NCBI RefSeq assembly: GCF_014764505.1
Contig: NZ_JACXWX010000042.1
Span: forward strand, 1 to 40,178
Source: Phormidium tenue FACHB-886
GTDB lineage: Bacteria > Cyanobacteriota > Cyanobacteriia > Elainellales > Elainellaceae
Reading direction: 5' to 3'
DNA: 40,178 bases
The stretch's first letter is position 1; every line of letters begins with the position of its first letter. Positions 1,724 through 35,343 of this stretch are shown here, piece by piece. The position numbers and the translations under genes were made by a program. The notes below the pieces were generated by a model that made no database searches, was not told the DNA's origin, and saw only the letters and a program-made list of their open reading frames with translations.

Positions 1724-3012
1724 CTGCTTGACTGACAAAACTAAGAAGCTGGAAAACGGCTGAGGACAATAAATTCACGCTCGAAAGAAGCATTTTGTTG
1801 TCGCTTGGATGCAATGGCAGGTTGAGGGTCAGGCAGACTTGAGAGAAACGGATAAACCTGAACTTTCCATTGCTGGGTGATGGCAAGACGAATCCAATTC
1901 CAACCAAGCTTGAGATAACTCATCCCCCGATTCCAGTGGGCATCGACTTGGCGACGCTTGCCTGAAATGACGACCTGTACTCCCTGGAGCACCAGAAACA
2001 GCATTGTTAAAGCAATCACTCCGCACAACTGGGAGAGGGCAAACTTGTCCCGCAGCCTAGAGGCTTCGAGATTGAATCCGTTGGACTTCAAATCCAAAAA
2101 CGATTCCTCCACACAAAACCGGAGTCGGTATTGAGTAAAGGTTTGCAAGTTCGTCGGTTCGTCGCTCACAATCGTCCAGTCCTCACCACTTTGCTTGTCG
2201 TGGGCGAACGCTAGATAAACATCGGGATAAGGTTTAGTTTTACCGACAGATAGCGCATCTGTGAAGTAAGCCTGTCCAGGCTGTAATTGCACCGACGACA
2301 CTTTGCGCCATTGTCCCTGGTGCTGAAACTGAAACGAACGTTTAATGCGAATCCGAAAATGCCAGCCCAGATTGTCTCGCAGGTATTTCATCAACTTGCC
2401 ATCAGCAAAGCCTCGGTCTGCCAGCAGGACAATCGCTACACCATCGGGCAGGATTCTTTGAGCTTGTCGCAGCACTCTCTGAATCGTCCACAACCTGACG
2501 CTACTGCTAGATTGTGCCACCACTCGCCACGCCACGGGAACGGTTCTGCCCCTATACACCACGCCCACCCATACGATGCAAAAACAATTCCAGACGACGG
2601 TTGTGTCCAAGCTTAGATACAACCGTTCACGGCTCCACTGAGACAAGGCTTGCCTGATCAGGACATGATGAGCAGCAACGACGTCAATCCGTCGATTCGA
2701 CAACCAGCGGCGAAACCGTCTTTGGTGTGACTGAGCAACTTGGGCGCGGCTTTTGACATACACGCCAAACCCATTGAGATGAACGCTCTGACTCTGAATC
2801 ATACCGATGATCATCCAACATAGGGTTTGTAGATGACGGACATCTTGCCACTGAATTTCACATTGACTCAAATAGCGCGACAGCGCATCATAAAGACGGG
2901 AAGTCGGAGACATTGATTTAGTTGATTTGTGTGGTTACTCATCAGCTTAAATCAGACTTTGCTTCCCTCCTAGCTTTCCTTTCACCCTCCTCCCGTTTTG
3001 TCAGTCAAGCAG
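1724..3012 (-). mobile_element. IS4-family insertion sequence, copy 1 (1289 bp)
   Basis: The element is bounded by perfect 18-bp terminal inverted repeats, CTGCTTGACTGACAAAAC on the left and its reverse complement on the right. It carries one transposase gene on the minus strand. Its length and encoded protein match the copy at 19595-20883. It lies inside a CRISPR repeat on its left, while the right flank (GGGGCTTGGC) neither completes the repeat nor repeats the left flank (ACTACCAAAC). No target duplication is therefore visible here, unlike the second copy. The first C could belong to either the repeat or the element. Confidence 0.95.
1741..2913 (-). CDS. IS4-family DDE transposase, copy 1
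   Basis: A 390-residue transposase. The likely catalytic acids are D103 (in SLDTTVV), D166 (in LLADRGF) and E269. The IS4 signature Y-(2)-R-(3)-E-(6)-K is exact at Y262, R265, E269 and K276. The gene starts with ATG about 99 bp inside the right terminal repeat and ends just inside the left one. No strong Shine-Dalgarno is seen, which is common for transposases. The protein is identical to that of copy 2, which suggests recent transposition and a functional enzyme. Antisense reading frames within it look like shadows. Confidence 0.95.
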   Translation of the reverse strand: MSPTSRLYDALSRYLSQCEIQWQDVRHLQTLCWMIIGMIQSQSVHLNGFGVYVKSRAQVAQSHQRRFRRWLSNRRIDVVAAHHVLIRQALSQWSRERLYLSLDTTVVWNCFCIVWVGVVYRGRTVPVAWRVVAQSSSSVRLWTIQRVLRQAQRILPDGVAIVLLADRGFADGKLMKYLRDNLGWHFRIRIKRSFQFQHQGQWRKVSSVQLQPGQAYFTDALSVGKTKPYPDVYLAFAHDKQSGEDWTIVSDEPTNLQTFTQYRLRFCVEESFLDLKSNGFNLEASRLRDKFALSQLCGVIALTMLFLVLQGVQVVISGKRRQVDAHWNRGMSYLKLGWNWIRLAITQQWKVQVYPFLSSLPDPQPAIASKRQQNASFEREFIVLSRFPAS

Positions 3013-16688: not shown

Positions 16689-18032
16689 CTAAACGTTAGT
16701 CTTGTCATTTTGTTCAAGCGCTTTAATCACCTTGTTATAGTATGCTTCTACTTCTTTGCGATCTTGCTCCTCAGATAATCCTGCACGGCTGCCCTGCAGA
16801 ATCATTTTTGCATGACGATGCAACACAAATTGATGCGCTGGATGGCAGCTAGTTCTGGCAATGAGAGTAATTGCTGCTAACAAACGAATCGTAACAGCAC
16901 TATCAGACTGAGCATATTGCCGAATAGAGTTAAACGCTTGATCTACTAATTCCTGAAACAAAACAGGCTGAGCAATGACCCGCAGTTGGTGAGTTTCATC
17001 GTAGCGATAGGGAGAGGGAAAATGGCGCTGAGCTAGGCAAGACAATCCTGCACCAAGACGATCGATGCAGCGGATAGCGGTGAAGGGGTCGTTGACTGCT
17101 GGAGAAATAGCACGTAGCGCAATTTCTACTAATTGATTAATTGGAAACTCAATATCCTGTTGCTCTGTCCGCTCTTCACCCAGAATGAACGCCTTTCTAA
17201 GTTGATCTCCTGGCAATCGAGCGACCCAAGTTCCAGGATAGACTCTGACTAGCTCATCACCTCTGACGATGAACTGCCCTGGCTGAACCTGAAGTTTGAG
17301 CAACAAATTGTCCTGACTCGCAAGCTTGAGCAAGATATTATCATCAACCACCTGTAGGTAACCAGTGTTGGTAGCTCGAATAGAGTCAGATTTTTGATCA
17401 AAGTGCTCAGGGATTTCTCCGATAGAGAGTTGAGGAGGAGATGCACCTCGACCAATCTCCTCGGGAAATAAACAGTCGATCGCCTGCTCAAACTCGCGAC
17501 TGACACTAGAAATCACATGGGACGCTTGAATAATCGTAGAAGCGTGATGAATAAAGTAAATCAAAACGCCAATACTGGCAATGGCTAAAACAATTCCAAC
17601 GGTCACAGAAAGTTGGGGAACGAACAGGTTATAGTCTTCACCATGGATTGTTCGAAGCACCAGCAGACAATAGATAAATGTTGCAATAAATGTACCCAAG
17701 ACAAATTGGTTGCCGGTATCCTGCATGAAGTTCCGCAGCAATCTGGGTCCAAATTGCGAGGAAGCAAGCTGAAGCGCCACAATCGTGATCGAGAATGCAG
17801 TTGCAGTCACGGTTGCCAATGAGCCTGCTACCACAGAAAGCACAGCTCGTGCTCCATCTGGACCTCCCGTGTAAATCCACCCCAGTTGCTCAATCGGTCC
17901 ATCCCTGCCTGCTCGATCAAGAGAAAGCATTGCAAAGGTAAGTAAAACCGCCACGCTTGCCATAATGGTGGGCAAGAACCAGTAGCTAGAGTGGAGCGAA
18001 TCCCATAACTTACTAAATCTGGCGCTTCTCAT
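16689..18032 (-). CDS. DUF2254 membrane protein, copy 1
   Basis: A 447-residue protein with four hydrophobic segments in the first 165 residues (about 18-36, 63-90, 110-127, 142-162). A large soluble C-terminal part follows, with a motif QDIEFPINQLVEIALRAISP and NDPFTAIRCIDRLGAGL. This is the DUF2254 family, whose function is unknown. The start ATG overlaps the MscS stop by 4 bp (ATGA), so the two are translationally coupled. A paralogue with the same arrangement is at 32975-34306, and a decayed third copy at 31361-32690. Tight coupling to MscS suggests a role in the same membrane or osmotic response. Confidence 0.9.
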   Translation of the reverse strand: MRSARFSKLWDSLHSSYWFLPTIMASVAVLLTFAMLSLDRAGRDGPIEQLGWIYTGGPDGARAVLSVVAGSLATVTATAFSITIVALQLASSQFGPRLLRNFMQDTGNQFVLGTFIATFIYCLLVLRTIHGEDYNLFVPQLSVTVGIVLAIASIGVLIYFIHHASTIIQASHVISSVSREFEQAIDCLFPEEIGRGASPPQLSIGEIPEHFDQKSDSIRATNTGYLQVVDDNILLKLASQDNLLLKLQVQPGQFIVRGDELVRVYPGTWVARLPGDQLRKAFILGEERTEQQDIEFPINQLVEIALRAISPAVNDPFTAIRCIDRLGAGLSCLAQRHFPSPYRYDETHQLRVIAQPVLFQELVDQAFNSIRQYAQSDSAVTIRLLAAITLIARTSCHPAHQFVLHRHAKMILQGSRAGLSEEQDRKEVEAYYNKVIKALEQNDKTNV

Positions 18033-19039
18033 ACATCACTCGTAGATTCAGTGTGACTACTGTCATTTTGTTGTGCCTCTACTGCAACCAGTTGTCGCAG
18101 CCCATCTGCAATGCTGCGAGGTTTAGGAATCTTACACTTACCTGCTGCCCAGCCCTCGCGCTGAAAAGCTCGATCGCCATCAGTTTCCTCGGTTTGGTCA
18201 TGAAAAAGAATCTGCTGAGTCGGGAAGGGGAGATCGATACCGTTCGCTGTCAGCTTATTCTTGATTGCCGTTAACACGCTATCTTGTAAATCGAGTGCGG
18301 GCGCACGACGCGGCGGCTTAACCCACCAGCGAGCACGGATGTTGACTGTACTTTCAGCTAAATCCACAGCGATTGCATCAGGAGCAGGCTGGGACAGCAC
18401 TCCTTTCGTTTCCCGCATCGCTTCTAGAATTAACCGTTTAGCGGTATCGATGTCATCACCATACCCAATTCCAATGTCGTATTCTAAACGGCGATGCTCA
18501 AATGCAGTATTGACTGTGATTGAGTTGGTGAATAGCGCTGAATTGGGAATGACAATGCAGTGACCATCATAAGTCCTGATTGTAGTGGCGCGAGTTTGAA
18601 TGTTTTCCACCGTTCCTTCAAACGCGTTAAACACTATCTGATCGTCAATTTGAAAGGGTTCTGTTAATAGAATCAAGATCCCTGCTAGAAAGTTCTGCAG
18701 AATGTCTCGAAAGGCAAATCCGATCGCCACGCTACCAATACCCAACAGTTGGATTAAGTCCGCCGCTTTGAAGGAGGGCAGCACAATTGAAAGGGCAACG
18801 AACAAACCGATGAGTACGGTTCCCCCTTGTGCTAATCGTCCCAATACCAAACCTAAATTACGAGCATGGCGACGTTCACGAGTCAGACGCCGGACTAGAT
18901 TGCGAATTCCTCTAGCAACAATAATAAAAATAGCAAATACAATCAGTGCCAAAAACACATTAGGCAGCATGACAATCAGCCCATTGACCATGCCTTGAAT
19001 CTTTTGCCATGCTGCTGTTAGTGCTGCTTCTAAAGCCAT
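18029..19039 (-). CDS. MscS-family mechanosensitive ion channel, copy 1
   Basis: A 336-residue small-conductance channel. TM segments are at about 22-42, 64-87 and 95-126; the third includes the pore-lining helix (LLGIGSVAIGFAFRDIL), followed by ILLTEPFQIDD. The cytoplasmic beta domain (GTVENIQTRATTIRTYDG, PNSALFTN) and C-terminal alpha/beta part follow. It would release solutes under hypo-osmotic stress (family knowledge). It starts 9 bp after the HtrA stop and overlaps DUF2254 by 4 bp. It is closely similar to the copy at 34303-35343. The IS in the upstream protease gene may change its transcription. Confidence 0.94.
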   Translation of the reverse strand: MALEAALTAAWQKIQGMVNGLIVMLPNVFLALIVFAIFIIVARGIRNLVRRLTRERRHARNLGLVLGRLAQGGTVLIGLFVALSIVLPSFKAADLIQLLGIGSVAIGFAFRDILQNFLAGILILLTEPFQIDDQIVFNAFEGTVENIQTRATTIRTYDGHCIVIPNSALFTNSITVNTAFEHRRLEYDIGIGYGDDIDTAKRLILEAMRETKGVLSQPAPDAIAVDLAESTVNIRARWWVKPPRRAPALDLQDSVLTAIKNKLTANGIDLPFPTQQILFHDQTEETDGDRAFQREGWAAGKCKIPKPRSIADGLRQLVAVEAQQNDSSHTESTSDV

Positions 19040-19048
19040 ATTCTTTCT

Positions 19049-19594
19049 CTAAGAGCGATTGCTGTCGGTTGCAAGAGGTAACTGCTCTGGTATAACTGTA
19101 AGTTTTTCAGTTAACCCGATTCGATTAACGGTAACCTGTAATGTTTCTCCCAACGGGGTTGCCTCAACTTGATCTTGCACCTGAGCCGCCGTTTCGATCG
19201 TCGCGTCATTCACTTGAGTAATGATGTCACCTGCTCGTAACCCAGCTTGGGCTGCTGGAGAATCAGGAGCGACCGTAATAATCAAAACACCCTGATCTTG
19301 ATTCACTGCAAACTCTAGATCGCTTTGACTAATCTCCCTCTGGATTTCTGGCGTTAATTCAATCAGGCGAATACCCAAATAAGGGTGTTCCACTCGACCT
19401 GTTTCAATCAAATGATCTGCAATTCTTTCTGCTTGATCAATGGGAATAGCAAAGCCTAACCCTTGCGCACCCTGGATAATAGCAGTGTTCACTCCAACTA
19501 CTTCTCCTTTGGCATTGAGCAGCGGTCCACCCGAATTACCTGGATTAATTGCAGCGTCGGTTTGAATGAAATCAAGGCGTTTGTCTTGAATACC
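19049..19594 (-). pseudogene. HtrA/Deg serine protease, 3' half, separated by IS
   Basis: This half encodes [20 protein letters not shown] with the catalytic Ser (about residue 220 of the restored protein), the end of the protease domain, and one PDZ domain ([14 protein letters not shown]). It joins exactly to the half at 20884-21490 when the IS and one copy of the 10-bp duplication are removed. A TTG inside the IS (19609) is in frame and could start a fragment lacking the catalytic His and Asp, which would not be a working protease. It sits 9 bp upstream of mscS. Confidence 0.93.
19585..19594. repeat. 10-bp target-site duplication, left
   Basis: CTTGAATACC directly precedes the IS left end; the identical ten bases follow the right end at 20884-20893. 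This is a direct mark of transposition and within the range known for IS4-family elements. Confidence 0.97.
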
Positions 19595-20883
19595 CTGCTT
19601 GACTGACAAAACTAAGAAGCTGGAAAACGGCTGAGGACAATAAATTCACGCTCGAAAGAAGCATTTTGTTGTCGCTTGGATGCAATGGCAGGTTGAGGGT
19701 CAGGCAGACTTGAGAGAAACGGATAAACCTGAACTTTCCATTGCTGGGTGATGGCAAGACGAATCCAATTCCAACCAAGCTTGAGATAACTCATCCCCCG
19801 ATTCCAGTGGGCATCGACTTGGCGACGCTTGCCTGAAATGACGACCTGTACTCCCTGGAGCACCAGAAACAGCATTGTTAAAGCAATCACTCCGCACAAC
19901 TGGGAGAGGGCAAACTTGTCCCGCAGCCTAGAGGCTTCGAGATTGAATCCGTTGGACTTCAAATCCAAAAACGATTCCTCCACACAAAACCGGAGTCGGT
20001 ATTGAGTAAAGGTTTGCAAGTTCGTCGGTTCGTCGCTCACAATCGTCCAGTCCTCACCACTTTGCTTGTCGTGGGCGAACGCTAGATAAACATCGGGATA
20101 AGGTTTAGTTTTACCGACAGATAGCGCATCTGTGAAGTAAGCCTGTCCAGGCTGTAATTGCACCGACGACACTTTGCGCCATTGTCCCTGGTGCTGAAAC
20201 TGAAACGAACGTTTAATGCGAATCCGAAAATGCCAGCCCAGATTGTCTCGCAGGTATTTCATCAACTTGCCATCAGCAAAGCCTCGGTCTGCCAGCAGGA
20301 CAATCGCTACACCATCGGGCAGGATTCTTTGAGCTTGTCGCAGCACTCTCTGAATCGTCCACAACCTGACGCTACTGCTAGATTGTGCCACCACTCGCCA
20401 CGCCACGGGAACGGTTCTGCCCCTATACACCACGCCCACCCATACGATGCAAAAACAATTCCAGACGACGGTTGTGTCCAAGCTTAGATACAACCGTTCA
20501 CGGCTCCACTGAGACAAGGCTTGCCTGATCAGGACATGATGAGCAGCAACGACGTCAATCCGTCGATTCGACAACCAGCGGCGAAACCGTCTTTGGTGTG
20601 ACTGAGCAACTTGGGCGCGGCTTTTGACATACACGCCAAACCCATTGAGATGAACGCTCTGACTCTGAATCATACCGATGATCATCCAACATAGGGTTTG
20701 TAGATGACGGACATCTTGCCACTGAATTTCACATTGACTCAAATAGCGCGACAGCGCATCATAAAGACGGGAAGTCGGAGACATTGATTTAGTTGATTTG
20801 TGTGGTTACTCATCAGCTTAAATCAGACTTTGCTTCCCTCCTAGCTTTCCTTTCACCCTCCTCCCGTTTTGTCAGTCAAGCAG
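19595..20883 (-). mobile_element. IS4-family insertion sequence, copy 2 (1289 bp)
   Basis: Same length, ends and transposase as copy 1 at 1724-3012, and the same orientation. It has perfect 18-bp terminal inverted repeats and a perfect 10-bp target duplication. It interrupts the HtrA protease gene between the catalytic Asp and Ser. The IS provides a stop codon six bases into its right end when read from the protease. Confidence 0.98.
19612..20784 (-). CDS. IS4-family DDE transposase, copy 2
   Basis: A 390-residue protein identical to the one at 1741-2913, with D103, D166, E269 and the exact Y-(2)-R-(3)-E-(6)-K signature. It is transcribed in the same direction as the interrupted protease and the downstream mscS, so read-through from the IS could still drive mscS and DUF2254 (inference). 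Confidence 0.95.
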
Positions 20884-21490
20884 CTTGAATACCAATGTCT
20901 GACCCCCTGCGCCCTGTTGCACTGATAATGCCTTGAGTTACCGTGTTATTTAATCCCAATGGATTGCCAATCGCAATTGCCCATTGTCCTGGCACTAAAT
21001 TTTGTGGGTCTCCCAGTTCAACGATTGGTAGTGCATCAGCTTCTACTTTAATTACCGCCACATCGGTAACAGAGTTAGCCCCTAACACTTTCCCCTCAAA
21101 GCTACGCCCATCCTTGAGGACGACGGCAACAGCGTCTGCCTCTTCTACTACATGGGCGTTCGTTATGATAATGAATCCAGAGCCAGTACCTTGTTGGACT
21201 CTCTGTTCTGGTGGAAAGACCTGATTACCAAAGATCCGCTCGATCAGGGGATTAGATACTGAAGGCTCTATAGTGCGAGTTGCATCAATACGGACAACCG
21301 CAACCCCAATGGATTTAACCACCTCTGCAATAAAGTTGGCATCGTTTGGAGCTGTGCGATCGGCAGGCAAAAGTTGTGCCTGCGTCTCGTTGCCTCTGAG
21401 ATGGGTGCATCCGGTACTACTGAGCAGCACTACCGTCAAATATAAGGCGGGCTGCTTGAGTAAATACCTTATCCTTCCTTTATTCCACAT
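20876..21490 (-). pseudogene. HtrA/Deg serine protease, 5' half, truncated by IS
   Basis: This half encodes 204 residues: a signal sequence with a weak lipobox-like end (SSTGC, Cys28), then the trypsin-like domain with H113 (TNAHVV) and D143 (SVTDVAVIKV) and GNPLGL near 176-180. It ends two codons into the IS (TGA). The catalytic Ser and PDZ domain are in the other half. The stretch GTGSGFIIITNAHVV is about six residues shorter than usual for Deg proteases, which have a short turn between GSGF and TNAHVV; this in-frame loss is independent of the IS. Before the insertion this would have been a periplasmic or membrane-anchored quality-control protease. Confidence 0.95.
20884..20893. repeat. 10-bp target-site duplication, right
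   Basis: CTTGAATACC directly follows the IS right end and matches 19585-19594. Confidence 0.97.
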
Positions 21491-21923: not shown

Positions 21924-22448
21924 ATGACACTGATGAAGTTAAGTGATTACTATCCTAATCACACAAAAGATTCGTTCAACGGACATAACATTACAGATTT
22001 TTCTGTGCACGCAAATGACACAGATGGCGACGATCGAGATGAAGTGGGCTCAGTGAAAGGCATACTGGTTGATGAAGAAGATGGACGCTTCCGCTATTTC
22101 ATCGTCGACACCGGTTTTTGGGTACTTGGCAAGAAAGTCTTGCTTCCTGTCGGCATGGCGCAGCTAAACTATGACAAAGAACAGCTTTACGTTTCTAGAC
22201 TGACCAAAGAGCAGGTGAAAAATTTACCTGAATTCAGCGATGATCTAAAGATCGACAACAACTATGAAGACCAAGTGCGAGCGGCATATCGCCCATTGAT
22301 TCCAAGCTCGACGATTGTTCAATCTTGGGCTGGTGGTGCATACAGCTATCAACAAGAGCCTTACTTCTACGATCTAAACGATACTGCATTCCGTTCTTAT
22401 GAGCAGCGAATGCGCGATGGCAGACCTACAGAAGCCTCTCGTTTCTAA
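21924..22448 (+). CDS. PRC-barrel domain protein
   Basis: A 174-residue soluble protein, rich in Asp and Tyr. Residues about 18-95 form a PRC-barrel-like fold (VGSVKGILVDEEDGRFRYFI; LGKKVLLPVGMAQL). The tail (95-174) has no known domain. Relatives in cyanobacteria are often longer with a DUF2382 region, which is absent here. GGAGAAAAAAC precedes the ATG. It heads a run of plus-strand genes for lipoproteins and a transporter; PRC-barrel proteins are often found with stress genes, but the role here is unknown. Confidence 0.85.
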   Translation: MTLMKLSDYYPNHTKDSFNGHNITDFSVHANDTDGDDRDEVGSVKGILVDEEDGRFRYFIVDTGFWVLGKKVLLPVGMAQLNYDKEQLYVSRLTKEQVKNLPEFSDDLKIDNNYEDQVRAAYRPLIPSSTIVQSWAGGAYSYQQEPYFYDLNDTAFRSYEQRMRDGRPTEASRF

Positions 22449-22549
22449 TTGTACATTTTCTCTCAGGTTCAATTGCTGTCTATTAGGGCGAAGAGATTCG
22501 CCCACTTCATCCCCTCCCAGCAAGCTATTTGATTAATTTGAGGAATTTT

Positions 22550-22741
22550 ATGGCAGAAGTCATGATGGACAAAGCTGTCAAGACCGTTGTGTTCAGCCTG
22601 TTTTTGGGAGCAGTTACTCTTGGTGCAGCCGGATGTGAACTGGGCTATGAACGAGAAGAAATTGAGGAAGAAAGAGAGAGAGAAGGAATTGTTAGAGAAG
22701 AGGAAATCCGTGAAGGCGAAGAAATTGAAGAGGAAGATTAA
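22550..22741 (+). CDS. small Glu/Arg-rich lipoprotein
   Basis: A 63-residue protein. The ATG at 22550 has GAGG 6-9 nt upstream, better than a TTG seven codons earlier. A hydrophobic segment (VVFSLFLGAVTLGAAGC) ends in a lipobox-like GAAGC, so the mature part is a lipid-anchored tail of about 35 residues made almost wholly of Glu, Arg, Ile and Gly (EEIEEEREREG and similar). The strongly charged, repetitive tail could be helical or bind cations. No family is recognised. It lies 32 bp upstream of the next lipoprotein gene. Confidence 0.75.
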   Translation: MAEVMMDKAVKTVVFSLFLGAVTLGAAGCELGYEREEIEEEREREGIVREEEIREGEEIEEED

Positions 22742-22773
22742 GCTTCGCAGTTCAGTGATTTAGGAGGTTTACA

Positions 22774-23625
22774 ATGACGGAATTTAAGATACCAGAAGAG
22801 CATGGTTCTACTAATTTTTTTGCTAAGGAATGGGCAGTACGCAGCACAATGGCGCTGGCATTGGTCACAGCATTGCTAACAGGTTGCCAATCTCCTGAGC
22901 AGCAAGCTACTGTATCAGATCAAACCAACGTATCTACGGAAGAAGTTGCTGAAAATACGAATCGGTACATTGGTCAAACAGTGACGGTCAGAAGCGAACC
23001 GATTAAAAAGATCAGTTCGAGTACATTCACAATCGAGGATAATCAATTCTTTGGTGATGAACCAATTTTAGTTGTGAATGCTTCTGGAAAACCTTTTGCT
23101 TTTCCAGAAGCTGGTACTGATATACAAATCACAGGCGAAGTCCGCAACTTTGTGTTTGCGGATGTTGAACGTGAATACAAGCTCAGTTTAGATGTAAATA
23201 CTTACCAAGAGTATGAAAACAAGCCTGCTATTCTTGCTCAATCGATCGCCATTGCTCCAAAACCTGGTGAACTAACTCGTAATCCTCAGCAGTACTATGG
23301 CAAACCGCTCGCGGTTACAGGTGAAGTCGAAGAAATTCAAGGTGCAAATGCCTTTACCTTGGACGAGGATCAGTTGATTGGAGGACAAGAGTTATTAGTT
23401 CTACGTGCAACACCAGCAGCGGCCAACCAGCCTGCAATTCAAGATGGGGAAAAAATTGCAGTAACAGGGGTATTACGTCCGTTTGTTATTGCTGAATTAG
23501 AGCGCGATTACGACTTTAATTGGGATACGGGAATTCAGCAAACGTTGGAAGCTGAGTATCGTAATAAGCCTGTGTTGATTGCGGAGAATGTTTATCCCTC
23601 TGCCATTCCAGATAGTGCTCAATAA
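22774..23625 (+). CDS. lipoprotein with two internal OB-like repeats
   Basis: A 283-residue lipoprotein. GGAGG lies just upstream of ATG 22774. A signal segment ends in LLTGC (Cys38) after an unusually long 25-residue N-region; a Met at 26 is an alternative start. The mature protein has two homologous halves, about 64-160 and 174-275. Each begins YxGxxxxVxxE and ends with a pattern (V/I)xA(D/E)(V/L)ERxYx..., then EYxNKPxxxA. The beta-rich pattern suggests OB-type folds. It sits 19 bp upstream of the Nramp-related transporter gene and may work with it at the membrane surface (inference). Confidence 0.8.
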   Translation: MTEFKIPEEHGSTNFFAKEWAVRSTMALALVTALLTGCQSPEQQATVSDQTNVSTEEVAENTNRYIGQTVTVRSEPIKKISSSTFTIEDNQFFGDEPILVVNASGKPFAFPEAGTDIQITGEVRNFVFADVEREYKLSLDVNTYQEYENKPAILAQSIAIAPKPGELTRNPQQYYGKPLAVTGEVEEIQGANAFTLDEDQLIGGQELLVLRATPAAANQPAIQDGEKIAVTGVLRPFVIAELERDYDFNWDTGIQQTLEAEYRNKPVLIAENVYPSAIPDSAQ

Positions 23626-23644
23626 GAGCCAGGAGTAACCTCAG

Positions 23645-25057
23645 ATGGATCAACAGTATCGCGCTCAAGCTTCAACTCAATTATCGCGTTCAAATTCACA
23701 GCAAAACCAGCAAATTCCTCGCCCCCCACAAGGAGCAGAACAGCTGAAGTGGCTTGGTCCTAGTTTTATCTGGATGCTATCTGCTGCAGGTTCTGGGGAA
23801 CTCCTATTTACTCCACGCATCGCTGCCCTTTATGGTTATGCTTTACTGTGGGCATTACTTGCAGCAGTCATCCTTAAGTGGTTTATTAATCGCGAAGTTG
23901 GACGTTTCACTGTTTGCACGGGTGCAACCATCTTAGAAGGATTTAAACAACTGCCTGGACCCAAAAACTGGGCAGTCTGGCTCATTTTAGTGCCGCAGTT
24001 TGCAGTTGCAGTTTCTACCGTTGCAGGGATGGCAGGAGCAGCAGCAACGGCACTAATTCTGGTGACAGGTGGAACTGTTCAACTCTGGACGGTCATTGTT
24101 ATTTTGGTGACAGCGGCGATCGTCTTTCTGGGGCAGTACAACGTCGTTGAAAAGTTCTCGTCGTTTGTAGGAATTGCCCGCACTCTAGCTGTGGTTACGG
24201 CTGCAATTTTTGTCTTTCCCAATGTCCGCAATTTTGCTTCTGGTTTAGTGCCGCAAATTCCTCAGGATGTGCAGTATCAGGAAGTGTTGCCCTGGTTAGG
24301 ATTCATGCTGGCAGGCGCAGCCGGAATGATGTGGTACTCCTACTGGGTAGATGCGCGAGGTTATGGTGCAACGGCACTGAAGCAGGAAGAACCCCTTAAG
24401 GTCAAACAGCTTGATTCGGAGCAGCAGCAACGATTGCAGGGCTGGGTTAAGCTAATGACCCTCTCGAATACGCTAGCAGTGGTTGGAGCCTTGCTGGCGG
24501 CACTGGCATTTCTGATTTTGGGGGGTGAGTTGTTGCGTCCAGAGGGACTTGTGCCTCAAGAAAATCAGGTAGCAGAAACATTGGGTAACTTATTAGGCAA
24601 TATTTGGGGACCCTTTGGCTTCTGGTTCATGATTGCGATCGTTTTCATCACCTTTTGCAGTACCACACTATCGGTGCAAGACGGCTTCGGACGTATGTTT
24701 GCCGATGGTACACAAATTCTCCTGCAAGGGTTTGGAATGCGGCAGGGTCGCTGGACGAATGAGAAGTTTCTGCGGAAATTTTACATTGCGGTTTTACTAG
24801 CAATTCTTCCAATCGCCGTTTATCTATTTTTCGGCAAACCGGTTGGATTACTACAAACGGCTGGGGCAATTGAAGCGGCGCATATTCCCGTTGTCGCCGG
24901 TCTGACACTATTCCTCAACTGTCAAATGCTGTCTCATAAGCTGCGCCCTTCCAGGTTCACCTTTTGGGGAACAGTGATTGCCGCATTATTCTTTGCAGTG
25001 TTTGCAGTTATTTATCTGCTGCAACTAATAGGAGTTTTTGGTTTGGGTGGTGGCTAA
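23645..25057 (+). CDS. Nramp-family-related metal transporter
   Basis: A 470-residue integral membrane protein with about 11 TM helices and a 35-residue Gln/Ser-rich N-terminal tail. The start LGPSFIWMLSAAGSGELLF resembles TM1 of the Nramp (MntH) family, as does LYGYALLWALL in TM2. The DPGN metal-binding motif of TM1 is replaced by GSGE (49-52), and the MPH motif of TM6 by a region around GMMWYSYWVD (227-235). Substrate may therefore differ from Mn2+/Fe2+; Mg2+ or a non-metal substrate is possible. It is flanked by lipoprotein genes at 19 and 48 bp, in one operon. Confidence 0.85.
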   Translation: MDQQYRAQASTQLSRSNSQQNQQIPRPPQGAEQLKWLGPSFIWMLSAAGSGELLFTPRIAALYGYALLWALLAAVILKWFINREVGRFTVCTGATILEGFKQLPGPKNWAVWLILVPQFAVAVSTVAGMAGAAATALILVTGGTVQLWTVIVILVTAAIVFLGQYNVVEKFSSFVGIARTLAVVTAAIFVFPNVRNFASGLVPQIPQDVQYQEVLPWLGFMLAGAAGMMWYSYWVDARGYGATALKQEEPLKVKQLDSEQQQRLQGWVKLMTLSNTLAVVGALLAALAFLILGGELLRPEGLVPQENQVAETLGNLLGNIWGPFGFWFMIAIVFITFCSTTLSVQDGFGRMFADGTQILLQGFGMRQGRWTNEKFLRKFYIAVLLAILPIAVYLFFGKPVGLLQTAGAIEAAHIPVVAGLTLFLNCQMLSHKLRPSRFTFWGTVIAALFFAVFAVIYLLQLIGVFGLGGG

Positions 25058-25105
25058 TCAACCGTAGCAAGTCTCGTCTATCACCCAAAAAACTTTGTTG
25101 TTTAG

Positions 25106-25723
25106 ATGGCTTATCTAATGAAATCACAGATCTTAGTTTCTAAAAAAGCTTTTTCACTCGCTTTTATTCTCTTTTTGATTCCTTTGGCATCCTGCCAGGT
25201 AGAGCAGGAAAAAGCAGGGAAGTTACCTGATGTGGATGTGGCTGTCGAACCTGGACGGTTGCCGCAATACGACATTGAAGGTCCTGATGTAAACGTGGGA
25301 GTGGCAGAGCGCACAGTTACAGTGCCTAAAGTTATCGTTGTGCAGGAAGAACAAACAGTTCAAGTTCCCTATATTGATGTGGATATCCCTGGGGTAGACC
25401 GACAAGAGCGTACCATTACGGCTGAGGTTGAAGTTCCTTCAGGTGGCTACAATCTTGAAATCCAGAATGTCTATGCAGTCAACAATGAGTTGTGGGTTAT
25501 TTCTCGCCTTGAGGAAACAAATCCGAATGCACCGCAAGCTGTGACGCGAGCCTCTGATCGCATTGTGATTAATGCTCCAGACATGTCTGTGCGTCATTAC
25601 ATTGTTGGAAAACGTCCAAGCGGCGTCTTTAATGAACAATATGAGTTCATTGGTAACCGTCAGCAGATTTTACCTCAACTAGAAGCAGGGCGACAGTTGT
25701 ACGAACGGGAAGCGGCAAGCTAA
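25106..25723 (+). CDS. beta-rich lipoprotein of unknown function
   Basis: A 205-residue protein with a signal peptide ending in a lipobox IPLASC (about Cys30). The mature part is rich in Val, Pro and Asp, with repeated (V/P)-x-V-x-V stretches (LPDVDVAV, GPDVNVGV, YIDVDIPGV), then a compact C-terminal domain (about 115-200). Protease-inhibitor-like folds cannot be excluded. I do not recognise the family. ATG at 25106 or 25118 could start it; neither has a strong ribosome site. It probably closes the lipoprotein/transporter operon. Confidence 0.75.
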   Translation: MAYLMKSQILVSKKAFSLAFILFLIPLASCQVEQEKAGKLPDVDVAVEPGRLPQYDIEGPDVNVGVAERTVTVPKVIVVQEEQTVQVPYIDVDIPGVDRQERTITAEVEVPSGGYNLEIQNVYAVNNELWVISRLEETNPNAPQAVTRASDRIVINAPDMSVRHYIVGKRPSGVFNEQYEFIGNRQQILPQLEAGRQLYEREAAS

Positions 25724-25815
25724 ATCATGCTCGATTGGATGACTAACACGATCGCTACTTAATGCAAACAAATTCCCTAAGGCAGCTCGGCGCTGGGGAA
25801 TAGAGATAGGTGGAT

Positions 25816-26083
25816 ATGAATAAGCATCTGTGGCGACGAATTAAATATTTGCTGTTAGGCGTAGCAGGGTGCTTACTTGTGGATGACGTTTGTAGAAGAT
25901 AAACTGAGTTGGTTATAGCTTTCCCAGATTAGAGGCGATACTGCGCGCGTATCCAGTTGGATTCCGGGATACGGCAATGCAGGTAATCGTCTCTATATCA
26001 ATCGCGGCATTGGTTTTAATCTACCCATTCGTTTTAACTGTCCACCTGAATTAACTGTATTAACATTGCAAGCAAAGACGTAA
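25816..26083 (+). pseudogene. metallophosphoesterase, internally deleted
   Basis: The frame starts MNKHLWRRIKYLLLGVAGCL and ends NRLYINRGIGFNLPIRFNCP-PELTVLTL, which are the start and end of cyanobacterial membrane-linked metallophosphoesterases. A frameshift follows GCLL, an in-frame TAG lies in the middle, and the entire metal-binding core (the GD, GNH and GHxH motifs) is missing. The gene would normally be about four times longer. It is non-functional. Confidence 0.8.
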
Positions 26084-26119: not shown

Positions 26120-26974
26120 ATGACCCGCCGAAATTCCCGCCTCTCTGATCTACAACAGCCTGCTCGACAGGCGGCATCCCATCCCTGGGTTGAACGACTG
26201 GCACGGTTTGGCTATGCTGCCAAAGGCATTGTCTACTTTATTGTTGGAATATTGGCAGCACAGGCAGCCTTTACAACAGGCGGTAGAACAACTGATACGA
26301 GTGGTGCGTTAACAACTATCGTCAACCAGCCTTTCGGGAAATTTCTGCTCATTTTAGTGACGATCGGCTTAATGGGTTACGCCCTCTGGCGCGTTGTCCA
26401 AACCATCTTCGATCCAGAGCATTCAGGCGAGGAAACGAACGCGAAGCACATTGTGCAGCGCATTGGCTACACATTCAGCGCGATCGCCTATACCGGGTTA
26501 GCTTTGACGGCAGTAAAACTTATCATGGGCACTGAAACTAGCAGCGGTAGCGCAACCCAGGATTGGACAGCCCACTTTATGGCTCAACCATTCGGGCGGT
26601 GGCTAGTCGGATTGGCAGGGCTAGTGGTGATTGGAGTGGGAATTTCGTACCTCTATCAGGCATATAAAGCTGAGTTCCAACACCATTTCAAACGCTATCA
26701 GATGAGCCAAACAGAACGTAACTGGGCAAAATGGATGGGCCAATTTGGGATTACGGCGCGCGGCATTGTATTTAGCATCATTGGGCTATTTCTAGTTCTG
26801 GCTGCCCTTCATGCCAATGCCAGTGAAGCAAGGGGGTTAGGCGGTGTATTAGCTACTTTAGCTCAGCAACCGTTTGGTTCCTGGTTATTAGGAATCGTTG
26901 CCCTCGGATTAATCGCTTACAGCATTTACTTATTAATTGAAGCTCGATATCGACGAATTACTCAACCTCAATAA
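26120..26974 (+). CDS. DUF1206 membrane protein
   Basis: A 284-residue protein with six TM helices arranged as three similar pairs. Each pair starts with a pattern like FGYAAKGIVYFIVGILA (about 30-47), with related segments at 109-130 and 209-230, and ends with PFGKFLL, PFGRWLV or PFGSWLL followed by a Gly-rich helix. This triple repeat is characteristic of DUF1206. GGAG lies 8-11 nt upstream of the ATG. Function is unknown. Confidence 0.92.
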   Translation: MTRRNSRLSDLQQPARQAASHPWVERLARFGYAAKGIVYFIVGILAAQAAFTTGGRTTDTSGALTTIVNQPFGKFLLILVTIGLMGYALWRVVQTIFDPEHSGEETNAKHIVQRIGYTFSAIAYTGLALTAVKLIMGTETSSGSATQDWTAHFMAQPFGRWLVGLAGLVVIGVGISYLYQAYKAEFQHHFKRYQMSQTERNWAKWMGQFGITARGIVFSIIGLFLVLAALHANASEARGLGGVLATLAQQPFGSWLLGIVALGLIAYSIYLLIEARYRRITQPQ

Positions 26975-27295: not shown

Positions 27296-28318
27296 TTGAC
27301 ACTAGGGCAATGGTTAGGACTGTTGACGATTATCATCTCTATTTGCGTCCTGTGGCAGATCCGGGCAATCATATTCCTCTTTCTTGCTGCAGTTGTGATT
27401 GCCACTGCTTTAAATCGTTTAGTCAGACGATTCAGGCGATCGCATATCAAACGAGGATATGCAGTTCTATTGGCAGTCATCGTTATCCTCAGCTTGTTAG
27501 GAATTCTAATAACACTGATTCTCATTCGCTTAGTCGATCAGTTTGATCAACTTCTGACTTTGATTCCTGTTTCAATTGATCAGCTTCAACTGTGGAGCTA
27601 TGAGCTTCAATCTAGAATTCCTGATGGAATGATGACGAATCTTCCCAGTTTAACTAACTTCGCCCAACAGCTACAGACTGCCGCAAATTGGATTATTGGA
27701 AATATTTATCTTTTCTTTTCAGATTCACTGACCTTAATCCTGAACATTCTATTTGTCTTTGTATTGACAATAATGCTGCTCGTAAATCCTCAACCGTATC
27801 GACACGGCTTAGTTAGTATTTTTCCTGCTTTTTACCGCCAGCGAGCTGATGAAATTTTTTCTAAATGCGAAGTGAAATTAGTGAATTATGTTGCAGGAAT
27901 CGCGCTGAGCATGTTTTTCGTTGGAGTTACTTCCACAATTGGTCTACTAGCGTTGCAGATTCCCCTTCCAGTTGTGAATGGAGTACTGGCTGGATTATCA
28001 GCTTTTATCCCTTACATCGGTGCAATCGCAAGTGCTATTCCACCTATATTGCTGGCACTGCTAGACCAACCCTGGAAAGCAGGAGCTGTTCTCTTACTGT
28101 ACTTTACGATTCAACAAGTAGAAGGAAATTTTGTCACACCTATCATCATGAAGCGGCAGGTTGCTCTACTTCCAGCAACAACACTGGCTTTATTAACAGC
28201 TTTCGGAAGCTTCTTTGGTTTTTTAGGCTTGCTGCTAGGATTACCAATTTTAGTTGTAGCCCAAACATGGTTAGAAGAAGCTGTTATACATGACATTTTG
28301 GATCGCTGGAAGGATTAA
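27296..28318 (+). CDS. AI-2E/PerM-family membrane transporter
   Basis: A 340-residue protein with about eight TM helices and the family pattern: an N-terminal pair (about 7-40), a long extramembrane helical region (80-145), then LSAFIPYIGAIASAIPPILLAL and EGNFVTPIIMKRQV. The start is TTG at 27296, supported by AGGAGG just upstream and by the MTLGQWLGLL beginning usual in this family. Members export small molecules or act as Na+/H+ antiporters; the substrate here is unknown. Confidence 0.92.
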   Translation: MTLGQWLGLLTIIISICVLWQIRAIIFLFLAAVVIATALNRLVRRFRRSHIKRGYAVLLAVIVILSLLGILITLILIRLVDQFDQLLTLIPVSIDQLQLWSYELQSRIPDGMMTNLPSLTNFAQQLQTAANWIIGNIYLFFSDSLTLILNILFVFVLTIMLLVNPQPYRHGLVSIFPAFYRQRADEIFSKCEVKLVNYVAGIALSMFFVGVTSTIGLLALQIPLPVVNGVLAGLSAFIPYIGAIASAIPPILLALLDQPWKAGAVLLLYFTIQQVEGNFVTPIIMKRQVALLPATTLALLTAFGSFFGFLGLLLGLPILVVAQTWLEEAVIHDILDRWKD

Positions 28319-32974: not shown

Positions 32975-34306
32975 TTAGTGTTGCTCAATTGCTTTCACAG
33001 CGGCTAGATATCGCCCTTTAATTGCTTTGCGATCTAACTCCTCTGCAATTCCTGTCTGGCTACCGCGCTCAATCATATCGGCATGACGCCTCAGCGGGAT
33101 TTGGTCTAATGTTTGATGGGTGAAAGATGCAATTACAGCGATTGCCTCTAGCAGCCGGATTGTGACGGCAACACTTGACTGTCCATATTGTCGAATTTGA
33201 TTAAAAGCAGCATCTGTTACCTCTGCAAAGGTGATGGGTTCAGCAATAACGCGAAGCTGGTTGTTATGGTCGTAGCGATAAGGAGAAGGAATTTCTCGTT
33301 GGGCAAAATGACAGAGAGCAGCATTCAACTGGTCAATACATCGGATGGCAGTAAATGGATCATTAATTCCTGGAGAAAGCGCCCGAACTGCAATTTCAAC
33401 CAGTTGATCAATCGAAAACTCAATATCTTGCTGCTCGGTGCGCTGTGAACCCAATACAAAAGCATTATTGATTTGGGCGGTAAGCTGCTTATTTACCTTT
33501 TCTTCGGGAAAGACGCGTACCAGTTCACTGCCTTTGACAACAAAGCGACCAGGGCGCTGCTGAACCCGTAATAACAGATTTTTGTCTGTGGCAATCTGCA
33601 TCAGTCGGTTGTCATCAATCGCTTGGACGTAGCCGCTGTTGCCCGCTTTAATGGAACAGGAAACGCGATCGAACTCGAGTGGAATATTGGCGATGCTTTG
33701 CTCTTGCTGTTTTGGAGCACTGCGTCCAATCTTTTCAGGAAAGAGTCGATCGATCGCATTATCGAGATCGCAACCCACTTTTTTGATCACCTGATCGACT
33801 TGAATCGACGAGGCGGAATGATGAATGAAGTAAATCAATACGCCAATGCTGGCGATCGCCAAGCCAATGCCACAGGTCACTGCACTGTGCGGCACAAACT
33901 CATTTTCTTCTACACCATTAATCGTTCGCAGCACCATTAAGCTGTATACAAACGTAGAGATAAAGGTTCCTAGCACCACCTGATTGCCCGTGTCTTGCAT
34001 AAAGTTACGCAGCAATCGCGGACCAAACTGAGAAGAGGCAAGCTGAAGGGCAACAATCGTAATGGAAAAAGCCGTGGTGGCAACACTCACCATAGAACCC
34101 GCGATTGCAGAAAGAATGGCGCGTGAACCGTTAGGTCCGAGGGAATAAGCCCAGCCTAACTCCCCAATAATGTTCGTTTCTCGGCTCTGGTCGATCGCAA
34201 TGGTGATAAACGACAGCCCGATCGCTAGTACCACCATGAGGGTTGGCACAAACCAGAAGCTGGAATGCAAGGAATTCCACAGTTTGCTTAACTTGGCGTA
34301 TCTCAT
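32975..34306 (-). CDS. DUF2254 membrane protein, copy 2
   Basis: A 443-residue paralogue of the protein at 16689-18032, with the same four N-terminal hydrophobic segments and C-terminal motifs (QDIEFSIDQLVEIAVRALSP; NDPFTAIRCIDQLNAAL). The stretch FSITIVALQLASSQFGPRLL is identical in both. Its ATG overlaps the mscS stop by 4 bp, exactly as in copy 1. It is the last gene of a DUF389-channel-MscS-DUF2254 operon. Function unknown. Confidence 0.9.
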   Translation of the reverse strand: MRYAKLSKLWNSLHSSFWFVPTLMVVLAIGLSFITIAIDQSRETNIIGELGWAYSLGPNGSRAILSAIAGSMVSVATTAFSITIVALQLASSQFGPRLLRNFMQDTGNQVVLGTFISTFVYSLMVLRTINGVEENEFVPHSAVTCGIGLAIASIGVLIYFIHHSASSIQVDQVIKKVGCDLDNAIDRLFPEKIGRSAPKQQEQSIANIPLEFDRVSCSIKAGNSGYVQAIDDNRLMQIATDKNLLLRVQQRPGRFVVKGSELVRVFPEEKVNKQLTAQINNAFVLGSQRTEQQDIEFSIDQLVEIAVRALSPGINDPFTAIRCIDQLNAALCHFAQREIPSPYRYDHNNQLRVIAEPITFAEVTDAAFNQIRQYGQSSVAVTIRLLEAIAVIASFTHQTLDQIPLRRHADMIERGSQTGIAEELDRKAIKGRYLAAVKAIEQH

Positions 34307-35343
34307 TGATCATGCTGAGTCGGGTTGTGATTCGTTGAAGATCCATTCCCCGCTCTAGTGCCATTGCGTTGAGATTGGATCTCAGCCAACTGTTTAAGGG
34401 CATGGCTGATACTGCGCGGCTTCGGAACGTCGCTGGTTCCGGCGGGCCAGCCTTCTCGTTGACGGGCGCGATCGCCATCACTAGCTTCGGTTTGGTCATG
34501 GAACAAAATCTGTTGGGTTGGGAAGGGTAGATCGATCCCGTTCGCTGTCAGCTTATTTTTAATGTTCGTCAAGACGCGGTCTTGCAAGGCTAAGACATCA
34601 GCTCGACGGGGCGGCTGCACCCACCAGCGAGCGCGAATGTTAACGGTACTATCTACCAGTCCTACCACGATCGCATCAGCCACAGGATTGTCTAACACGC
34701 CGTCCGTCTCATGAATTGCCTCTAGAATTAACCGTTTGGCAGTATCAATATCATCACCATAGCCAATACCAATGTCGTACTCTAGGCGGCGATTTTCAAA
34801 TGCCGTGTTAACAGTAACTGAGTTAGTGAATAGCTCTGAATTGGGAATCACAATGCGCCGACCATCGTAGGTTCTAATCGTTGTTGCGCGTGTTTGAATT
34901 TGTTCGACGGTTCCCTCAAAGTCTTTAAATACGATTTGGTCGTCAATCTGAAACGGCTCAGTCAGCAGGATCAAAATACCCGCTAAAAAGTTTTGTAGAA
35001 TGTCTCGAAAGGCAAACCCAATTGCAACCCCACTGATTCCCAATAGCTGAACGAGATCGCTTGCTTTGAGAGATGGAATGACGATCGACAGAGAAATAAA
35101 TAATCCTGCCAAAATTGTTATGCCTTGAGCCAATCGTCCCAGCACTAATCCTAAATTGCGAGCTTGGCGACGATTGCGAGTTAGCTTCCTCACCGTTTGC
35201 TTAATCACTCTGGCGATGAAGAAAAATATCGCAAAGACGATCAACGCCAGCACAATATTAGGCAACAGGGCAAAAAAGCCATTTGCCATTGCCTGAATTT
35301 TGTCCCATACAGTAGATAGTTCTGCGTTCATTACATTCTCCAA
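34303..35343 (-). CDS. MscS-family mechanosensitive ion channel, copy 2
   Basis: A 346-residue channel closely similar to that at 18029-19039. The pore-helix segment (LLGISGVAIGFAFRDIL), ILLTEPFQIDD, the beta domain (GTVEQIQTRATTIRTYDG) and the C-terminal motif GIDLPFPTQQILFHDQTE are shared. The C-terminal tail differs and is rich in Asn, His and Gln. It follows the cation channel gene by 45 bp. Confidence 0.94.
   Translation of the reverse strand: MENVMNAELSTVWDKIQAMANGFFALLPNIVLALIVFAIFFFIARVIKQTVRKLTRNRRQARNLGLVLGRLAQGITILAGLFISLSIVIPSLKASDLVQLLGISGVAIGFAFRDILQNFLAGILILLTEPFQIDDQIVFKDFEGTVEQIQTRATTIRTYDGRRIVIPNSELFTNSVTVNTAFENRRLEYDIGIGYGDDIDTAKRLILEAIHETDGVLDNPVADAIVVGLVDSTVNIRARWWVQPPRRADVLALQDRVLTNIKNKLTANGIDLPFPTQQILFHDQTEASDGDRARQREGWPAGTSDVPKPRSISHALKQLAEIQSQRNGTRAGNGSSTNHNPTQHDQ

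Follow-up and report, generated by a model that had tools for sequence, protein, structure and literature searches.

Results

Gene content of the locus

The window, which is the whole stretch of 40,178 nucleotides from Phormidium tenue FACHB-886 analysed here, carries five open reading frames at 21924–25723, all on the forward strand and separated, in order, by gaps of 101, 32, 19 and 48 bp (Table 1); the close succession of five genes given in a preliminary description of this DNA is thereby borne out. Promoter and terminator scans of this one-strand stretch found nothing above chance. Lipobox cysteines were seen by eye in the two lipoproteins so listed in Table 1 and in OBlp (LLTGC), a double-OB lipoprotein. 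The surface anchoring proposed earlier for proteins on both sides of the transporter gene therefore stands for three lipoproteins, as surface candidates, but not for the PRC-barrel protein, in which no signal sequence was seen by eye. Six comparisons with relatives gave dN/dS ratios of 0.054–0.115 (for one OBlp pair no ratio was obtained), which are rough because dS is high (1.1–4.1).

Table 1. Features of the five-gene stretch and its surroundings (positions in the window)
Feature	Position	Strand	Basis
DUF2254 and MscS-type channel genes, island neighbours	16689..19039	-	PF10011, PF00924
PRC-barrel protein, 174 aa, core gene	21924..22448	+	PF05239
Acidic mini-lipoprotein, 63 aa from ATG, Glu/Arg-rich tail	22550..22741	+	Lipobox GAAGC, sequence
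OBlp, predicted lipoprotein with two OB-fold repeats, 283 aa, core gene	22774..23625	+	Alignment, AF2 model
Predicted Nramp-fold transporter, 470 aa, TM1 motif GSGE, core gene	23645..25057	+	PF01566, NF037982
Lp5, beta-rich lipoprotein, 205 aa, narrow distribution	25106..25723	+	Lipobox LASC
Calcineurin-like phosphoesterase gene remnant, two ends left	25810..26080	+	tblastn with L008 protein
DUF1206 membrane protein, frequent neighbour	26120..26974	+	PF06724, 210 bits
AI-2E family transporter, island neighbour	27296..28318	+	PF01594, 234 bits

The PRC-barrel protein passes its Pfam family with 38.3 bits against a cut-off of 21.2, and counterparts at the same place in two relatives (L114 and L115) are 72% and 70% identical to it. 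According to the available part of one report, AvaK-type PRC-barrel genes are upregulated in alkane-overproducing Nostoc punctiforme and are called general stress genes by its authors (PMC7660261); the PRC-barrel domain is common to these proteins and to ours, and the two are likened by domain only. No paper describing the gene set was found among the matches listed in the literature searches. Anti-phage defence was set aside, as none of the five proteins matched PADLOC at E up to 0.01, and so was a plasmid origin: OBlp had no match in the plasmid collection, and Lp5 had a short, weak match in five Leisingera plasmids.

An Nramp-fold transporter lacking the canonical metal motifs

The transporter passes both PF01566 (61.1 bits against a cut-off of 29.8) and NF037982, named ‘Nramp family divalent metal transporter’ (Nramp_1; 150.7 bits against a curated cut-off of 50). 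Its AF2 model (pLDDT 87) is predicted to adopt the Nramp (LeuT/Nramp) fold and matches DraNramp (6c3i_B) with a VIA Z of 40.5 and 2.5 A over 384 residues at 17% identity. The motifs were followed in an alignment (A3) of 36 transporters, picked from the window and 80 loci that had been gathered by two peptide patterns, MW[YF]SYWV in TM6 and [QHD]LPGPKNW. The position of the DPGN aspartate in TM1 is occupied by Gly in 34 of the 36 and by Ala in the other two, and the Asn position by Glu (20), Ser (11), His (4) or Ala (1) and never by Asn; the window reads GSGE, and its relatives mostly GSGS, with related GSGS-type proteins in Bacteroidetes, one actinobacterium and one alphaproteobacterium. The MPH columns of TM6 are gapped in all 36 (the window reads GAAGMMWYS there), a loss partly built into the sample because one gathering pattern lies in TM6 itself. 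No Glu was seen in the aligned TM3 column of the 36, where the alignment has gaps. A canonical MntH is encoded elsewhere in the same genome. As judged from these alignments, the transporter has lost the canonical metal-site motifs, in agreement with its earlier portrayal as an Nramp relative without them: GSGE replaces DPGN, and the MPH of TM6 has no counterpart.

The Pfam match and the fold are common to the transporter and the SLC11/Nramp (MntH) importers of PF01566, from which it differs in having neither DPGN nor MPH nor a Glu in the aligned TM3 column. The accessible part of one analysis describes the Slc11 metal site as TM1 DxxN plus TM6 A/CxxM, and has NRMTs retaining the TM1 Asp in a DxxG-TxxA/T site (PMC8806188). 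The best PDB profile match of our protein is such an NRMT, the Mg2+ transporter EleNRMT (7qia; E 3.3e-11), which has the same fold (Z 37.8), but the NRMT site is not found here, the TM1 Asp being missing from all 36 transporters. The available parts of two further papers present an orphan outgroup of PF01566 (Cellier) that lacks the metal and proton features of Slc11 and is said to keep one ancestral TM3 Glu (PMC9606685, PMC10606218). The loss of motifs is common to that outgroup and to our transporter, as compared by description rather than by sequences, whereas the aligned and gapped TM3 column of our 36 holds no such Glu.

One alternative to be weighed at this point is that the protein still carries divalent cations, for example Mg2+, at a site remodelled to use Glu52 and backbone carbonyls, with the lipoproteins chelating or presenting the ion. 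NF037982 matches all 36 aligned transporters at E up to 1e-10, although the function in its name is a label only; the EleNRMT match points the same way, as does a ZIP-like family (under its Pfam cut-off) in 11 of 43 neighbourhoods. Against this stand the replacement of the TM1 Asp that NRMTs are reported to keep (PMC8806188, available part), the presence of Glu at the Asn position in no more than 20 of the 36 proteins, and the TM3 column without Glu. On balance, we regard the divalent-cation reading as somewhat unlikely. The database label ‘divalent metal transporter’ is doubtful, since the metal-site aspartate is missing in all 36 aligned members.

A predicted lipoprotein of two OB folds

An alignment (A2) of 32 sequences supports the two repeats of OBlp, and the AF2 model of this protein shows two barrels (mean pLDDT 75.7, but below 50 for most of residues 1–59); alignment and model agree on the two-repeat lipoprotein of the preliminary description. 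The model matches 6pqh_D with a VIA Z of 12.7 over 97 residues, mostly of the second repeat, while a sequence search of the PDB gave no match at E up to 1. OBlp is thus predicted to be a lipoprotein of two OB folds. Its repeats model as OB barrels and have PDB fold matches, as expected of OB-fold domains such as those of AsnRS, Ten1 and RPA14/32; unlike these, OBlp is a putatively lipid-anchored, tandem protein. No ligand can be named for OBlp because the fold matches are generic OB domains, and the fold was discarded as a clue to function. Assignment to the tRNA_anti-like family PF12869 was also rejected (17.7 bits, under the cut-off of 23.5).

Linkage of the core genes

OBlp, the PRC gene and DUF1206 are linked to the transporter gene well above uniform placement. 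Of the 19 transporter genomes searched, 17 have OBlp no more than 10 kb from the transporter, against 0.12 expected and a maximum of 3 over 200,000 simulations, and all 19 have it within 30 kb; the corresponding counts within 10 kb are 13 for DUF1206 (0.07 expected) and 11 for PRC (0.22 expected), under a null that is a simple uniform placement and in 19 genomes that are related to each other. The preliminary description took the five genes as a unit, and for these three part of it stands: PRC, OBlp and transporter are consecutive in L114 and L115, which belong to two other genera of the family (three with the window), but this arrangement is missing from G191, G185 and G179. These are the other three of the six close-type carriers that a search of 36 genomes of the taxonomic order gave (the second-type transporter of G173 and the fragment in G183 were not among the six). 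Records taken as identical (G191 and G146, the source of L008; L118 and L032; L117 and L065) were counted once.

Among 41 close-type loci, 13 have a PRC and an OBlp gene upstream of the transporter and on its strand, within the flank, and seven have none of OBlp, PRC and DUF1206, four of these seven being under 12 kb. These three families were counted from E-value queries (E <1e-20 for OBlp, <1e-5 for PRC, and a phmmer E of at most 1e-3 for DUF1206 and the remaining queries) because the single-linkage OBlp cluster had taken in unrelated proteins. In 9 of 43 loci the gene immediately before the transporter belongs to the cluster labelled OBlp, namely six full-length cases (L028, L035–L039), two partial ones (L012, L024) and one clustering artefact (L048); the gene-order tally leaves out unnamed ORFs of <100 aa. 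Distances among OBlp and transporter sequences are correlated (Spearman 0.58, 30 pairs, 0 of 999 permutations), a co-divergence that is not evidence of interaction because shared species history gives the same.

The rest of the neighbourhood is shuffled, with genes for DUF1206, HAD, GH13, luciferase-like, AI-2E and MscS/DUF2254 proteins around the core, and we read it as an osmotic/desiccation island. Single-linkage clustering, taken as it stands, gave HAD in 28 of 43 loci, GH13 in 19, luciferase-like in 17, AI-2E in 9, GH15-like in 8, MscS in 8 and DUF389 in 6 (L006 and L044 are the same record, leaving 42 distinct loci); by the E-value queries, the AI-2E family transporter is found in 8 of 41 loci and DUF2254/MscS-type genes in 6 of 41.

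Such an island might simply collect stress genes, so that the core genes share regulation or a niche without any joint function. The wide variation in order and partners, the diversity of the neighbour families and the fact that three of six OBlp loci away from the transporter are without the listed island families in their flanks are all consistent with this. On the other hand, the 17 linked genomes and the recurrence of the three-gene order in three genera argue for more than collection, as does a second cyanobacterial transporter clade, in which OBlp is near in one of seven loci; OBlp pairing therefore goes with the transporter type. We consider collection alone a serious contender, though one we are inclined to doubt. 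It overlaps with a functional core as regards the island itself.

Mini-lipoprotein and Lp5

The mini-lipoprotein (ATG at 22550, alternative TTG at 22529) is patchy, being found in the window and, of 63 further sources that were scanned, in three: L015, L018 and L019 have similar lipoproteins of 38–45 aa directly upstream of the transporter, which are short and of putative homology, and a match in L062 was left out of the count (other strand, unlike the rest). What we read as its degraded remnant may be present in L115. Lp5 occurs in the window and two more of the 36 genomes of the order, G191 (65%) and G179 (66%, partial), in both on contigs other than the transporter's, and in a draw of 146 genomes of the phylum it occurs in one, the window genome itself. 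A PrcB-like identity was rejected for Lp5 (PrcB_C, PF14343, 16.6 bits against a cut-off of 24, not seen in two homologues, neither of which matched a Pfam family at E up to 1).

The membrane assembly of all five products suggested earlier would be consistent with the short gaps and with the four terminator-like sites, all of which fall inside the transporter gene, although 4.4 are expected by chance. Yet the mini-lipoprotein is present in only 4 of the 64 sources, and outside the window Lp5 was found only on contigs other than the transporter's. The recurrent PRC, OBlp and transporter core of the assembly is retained, whereas its five-component form, with the mini-lipoprotein and Lp5 included, seems to us very improbable.

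Discussion

We propose, with a confidence about midway between doubt and conviction, that PRC, OBlp and transporter form the core of a modular osmotic/desiccation island of mostly filamentous cyanobacteria, in which the transporter has some solute or ion as its substrate rather than Mn/Fe and OBlp is its membrane-anchored partner. The gene cluster probably helps the cell against drying or salt. The transporter would keep the alternating-access mechanism of the Nramp fold and possibly works during drying or salt; OBlp, held to a membrane by its lipid, might present two OB domains beside it as a ligand-binding or envelope-contact partner. The PRC protein may be a scaffold or regulator that is induced by stress and acts in the cytoplasm, and the mini-lipoprotein and Lp5 would be later, lineage-level additions. 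The carrier cyanobacteria are presumably of terrestrial habitat. The linkage provides an uncharacterized branch of a well-studied transporter superfamily with a genetic partner that recurs and with a likely setting, and it makes the genes a candidate set for cyanobacterial drying and salt tolerance.

A more specific possibility, which we think quite unlikely, is that OBlp and the GSGE transporter constitute an undescribed two-part Nramp-fold transporter for an osmolyte or monovalent ion, with OBlp as the extracytoplasmic partner, serving desiccation tolerance in terrestrial cyanobacteria. Were this true, public databases would misname the clade as ‘divalent metal transporter’, and the GSGS-type transporters of Bacteroidetes, the actinobacterium and the alphaproteobacterium would share a new substrate class.

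The wider island lies outside the 21924–25723 stretch covered by the preliminary description. Downstream of Lp5, the Pfam-named phosphoesterase of L008 aligns by tblastn through residues 1–24 and 249–316 only, and a second DUF2254/MscS-type pair is present in the window at 32975–35343.

A three-gene core in a shuffled neighbourhood

The PRC-barrel protein, the lipoprotein of two OB-fold repeats (OBlp) and the Nramp-fold transporter form a recurrent three-gene core that sits in a shuffled neighbourhood. In the window, which belongs to a genome of 8.9 Mb, they are part of a run of five ORFs separated by intergenic gaps of 101, 32, 19 and 48 bp; the preliminary description of this run is borne out. 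Promoter and terminator scans of the five-gene stretch gave nothing above chance. Six comparisons with relatives, covering PRC, OBlp, the transporter and the fifth-gene lipoprotein Lp5, gave dN/dS of 0.054–0.115 at high dS, one OBlp pair yielding no value.

Features of the window in order of position
Feature	Position	Strand	Place in run	Family matches
CRISPR array	1-1722
Insertion sequence, first copy	1723-3012
DUF2254/MscS-channel pair	16689-19039
HtrA-type protease gene, two parts	19049-19609 and 20876-21490
Insertion sequence, second copy	19594-20883
PRC-barrel protein	21924-22448	+	first	PF05239, 38.3 bits
Acidic mini-lipoprotein		+	second
OBlp, two-repeat lipoprotein	22774-23625	+	third
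Nramp relative (transporter)	23645-25057	+	fourth	PF01566, 61.1 bits; NF037982, 150.7 bits
Lp5, further lipoprotein	25106-25723	+	fifth
Phosphoesterase remnant	25810-26080
DUF2254/MscS-channel pair	32975-35343

The transporter family is uncommon: the phylum draw of 146 genomes has four carriers, counting the window's, and one of these (G008, 44%) carries the second type, a separate cyanobacterial clade. OBlp occurs in eight of the same 146, among them all four transporter carriers. A scan of genome contigs retained 80 of 89 loci, 41 of them (L008–L048) of the close type, that is, like the window's. Their fetched flanks hold OBlp in 29 loci, PRC in 20 and DUF1206 in 20; in the 23 loci whose flanks are long both upstream and downstream, the counts are 20, 14 and 16. 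When 19 of the close-type genomes were searched whole, 17 had an OBlp copy no more than 10 kb from the transporter, against 0.12 expected under uniform placement, and all 19 had one within 30 kb; the corresponding 10-kb figures are 13 against 0.07 for DUF1206 and 11 against 0.22 for PRC.

The check named in the preliminary description was whether the five genes are neighbours in related genomes. This holds in part for PRC, OBlp and the transporter, which are consecutive in L114 and L115, each from another genus of the family, but not for Lp5, which in the two other genomes of the order that have it lies on transporter-free contigs. Among 36 genomes of the order there are six close-type carriers; three (the window, L114 and L115) have the PRC–OBlp–transporter order, which is absent from G191, G185 and G179. 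Both PRC and OBlp lie upstream of the transporter on the same strand in 13 of the 41 close-type loci, and seven, four of which hold less than 12 kb, have none of OBlp, PRC and DUF1206. Gene order around the transporter is shuffled across 43 loci: the cluster label directly upstream is OBlp in nine, PRC in six, peptidoglycan-binding in six and HtrA in three, and the nine OBlp labels comprise six full-length copies (L028, L035–L039), two partial ones (L012, L024) and a clustering artefact (L048).

OBlp was found in just one of seven loci of the second type, which ties it to the GSGE type and means that relatives without OBlp exist too. The seven second-type loci are L007, L049, L051, L053, L054, L063 and L065, of which L063 is partial, and their TM1 motif is GSGS (GSGA in L053). 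Some have LLM genes as neighbours, others what by eye are FAD-monooxygenase-like or glucosidase-like genes, and both transporter types coexist in some genomes. More distant homologues with TM1 ATGE occur in Micromonospora and Verrucosispora (L052, L057), with a GH13 gene within 10 kb.

Fold and site of the transporter

Among named relatives met in the contig scan, Oculatella comes closest (88% in the transporter), which makes the source of the window a cyanobacterium, probably a filamentous one. The AlphaFold2 model of the transporter, built with 36 sequences (pLDDT 87), matches DraNramp (6c3i_B; Z 40.5, 2.5 A, 384 residues) and the Mg2+ transporter EleNRMT (7qia; Z 37.8). The same genome has a canonical MntH (L099) elsewhere; in the alignment its TM1 motif DPGN corresponds to GSGE, and its TM6 motif MPH has no counterpart in the window transporter. 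Of the 36 aligned transporters, 34 have Gly and two have Ala in place of the TM1 Asp; at the Asn position 20 carry Glu, 11 Ser, four His and one Ala. The sample was collected by two peptide patterns, one of them situated in TM6, which to some extent predetermines the TM6 result; the TM1 result is free of this bias. NRMTs, by contrast, retain the TM1 Asp (DxxG) according to PMC8806188; judged by its predicted site, therefore, the transporter belongs with neither classical Nramp proteins nor NRMTs. Its likeliest placement is the orphan outgroup of PF01566 that lacks Slc11 features, as Cellier describes it in PMC9606685 and PMC10606218, matched here by description rather than by its sequences. 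All 36 transporters match NF037982, 'Nramp family divalent metal transporter', a name that the predicted site residues do not support. That the protein is a remodelled divalent-cation transporter, as the family name suggests, we consider rather unlikely given these residues. Short PF01566 fragments lie elsewhere in the window's genome (G000:C190:314667-314816 and G000:C221:135-317), one with two stops.

The lipoproteins

In an alignment of 32 OBlp sequences the lipobox Cys is invariant and two repeats can be told apart; the model, whose mean pLDDT of 75.7 comes with low values across most of residues 1–59, has two OB barrels. Together they confirm the two-repeat nature first read from the sequence. 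Its structural matches in the PDB are OB domains of a generic kind, among them 6pqh_D (Z 12.7, 97 residues).

The five products had also been proposed to form one membrane assembly. No signal sequence is visible by eye in the PRC protein, which leaves three products as surface candidates. The mini-lipoprotein resembles acidic lipoproteins of 38–45 aa whose genes lie a short way upstream of the transporter gene in L015, L018 and L019, homology being unproven for sequences so short, and a stretch between PRC and OBlp in L115 is read as its degraded remnant. Among the 146 genomes of the phylum draw, the window's alone was found to have Lp5; in the order it was found in three of 36, the window's included. 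In both others its contig lacks the transporter: its neighbours are GH31, a short OBlp relative and a second secreted family in L105, and MscS/DUF2254, DUF389, ion-channel and AI-2E genes in L106. With Lp5 so distributed, a five-part assembly is very improbable.

Neighbouring families and possible function

Neighbours at the 43 loci (one a duplicate) include HAD (28), GH13 (19), luciferase-like (17), SLH (14), AI-2E (9), GH15-like (8), MscS (8) and DUF389 (6) genes, and within 17 kb the window has two MscS/DUF2254 pairs, an ion channel, DUF389 and a Na/H exchanger. The two DUF2254/MscS-channel pairs are paralogous. The reading we hold most likely, at about an even chance, is that the transporter moves a solute other than Mn/Fe when cells dry or meet osmotic stress, OBlp being its partner; the stress part of this reading is drawn from the neighbour families. 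Many host strains are from what we take to be soil, desert or subaerial habitats (Microcoleus vaginatus, Nostoc flagelliforme, Gloeocapsopsis). Somewhat less probable, and overlapping with stress transport of this kind, is that the genes are merely co-resident in an island; in three of six OBlp loci away from the transporter (L120, L121, L123) the fetched flanks held no listed neighbour family.

Local history

The locus is under remodelling, and PRC, OBlp and the transporter remain together in the window. The order in L008 is transporter, HAD, phosphoesterase, DUF1206; HAD has no match in the window, Lp5 occupies its position, and of the phosphoesterase before DUF1206 just the two ends can still be matched to that of L008. 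Upstream, the HtrA-type protease gene is split by the second insertion sequence, with a 9–10 bp target duplication. The two insertion sequences are identical across 1290 bp; the first starts within a further repeat of the CRISPR array, which has 23–24 regular repeats at 71–72 nt spacing.
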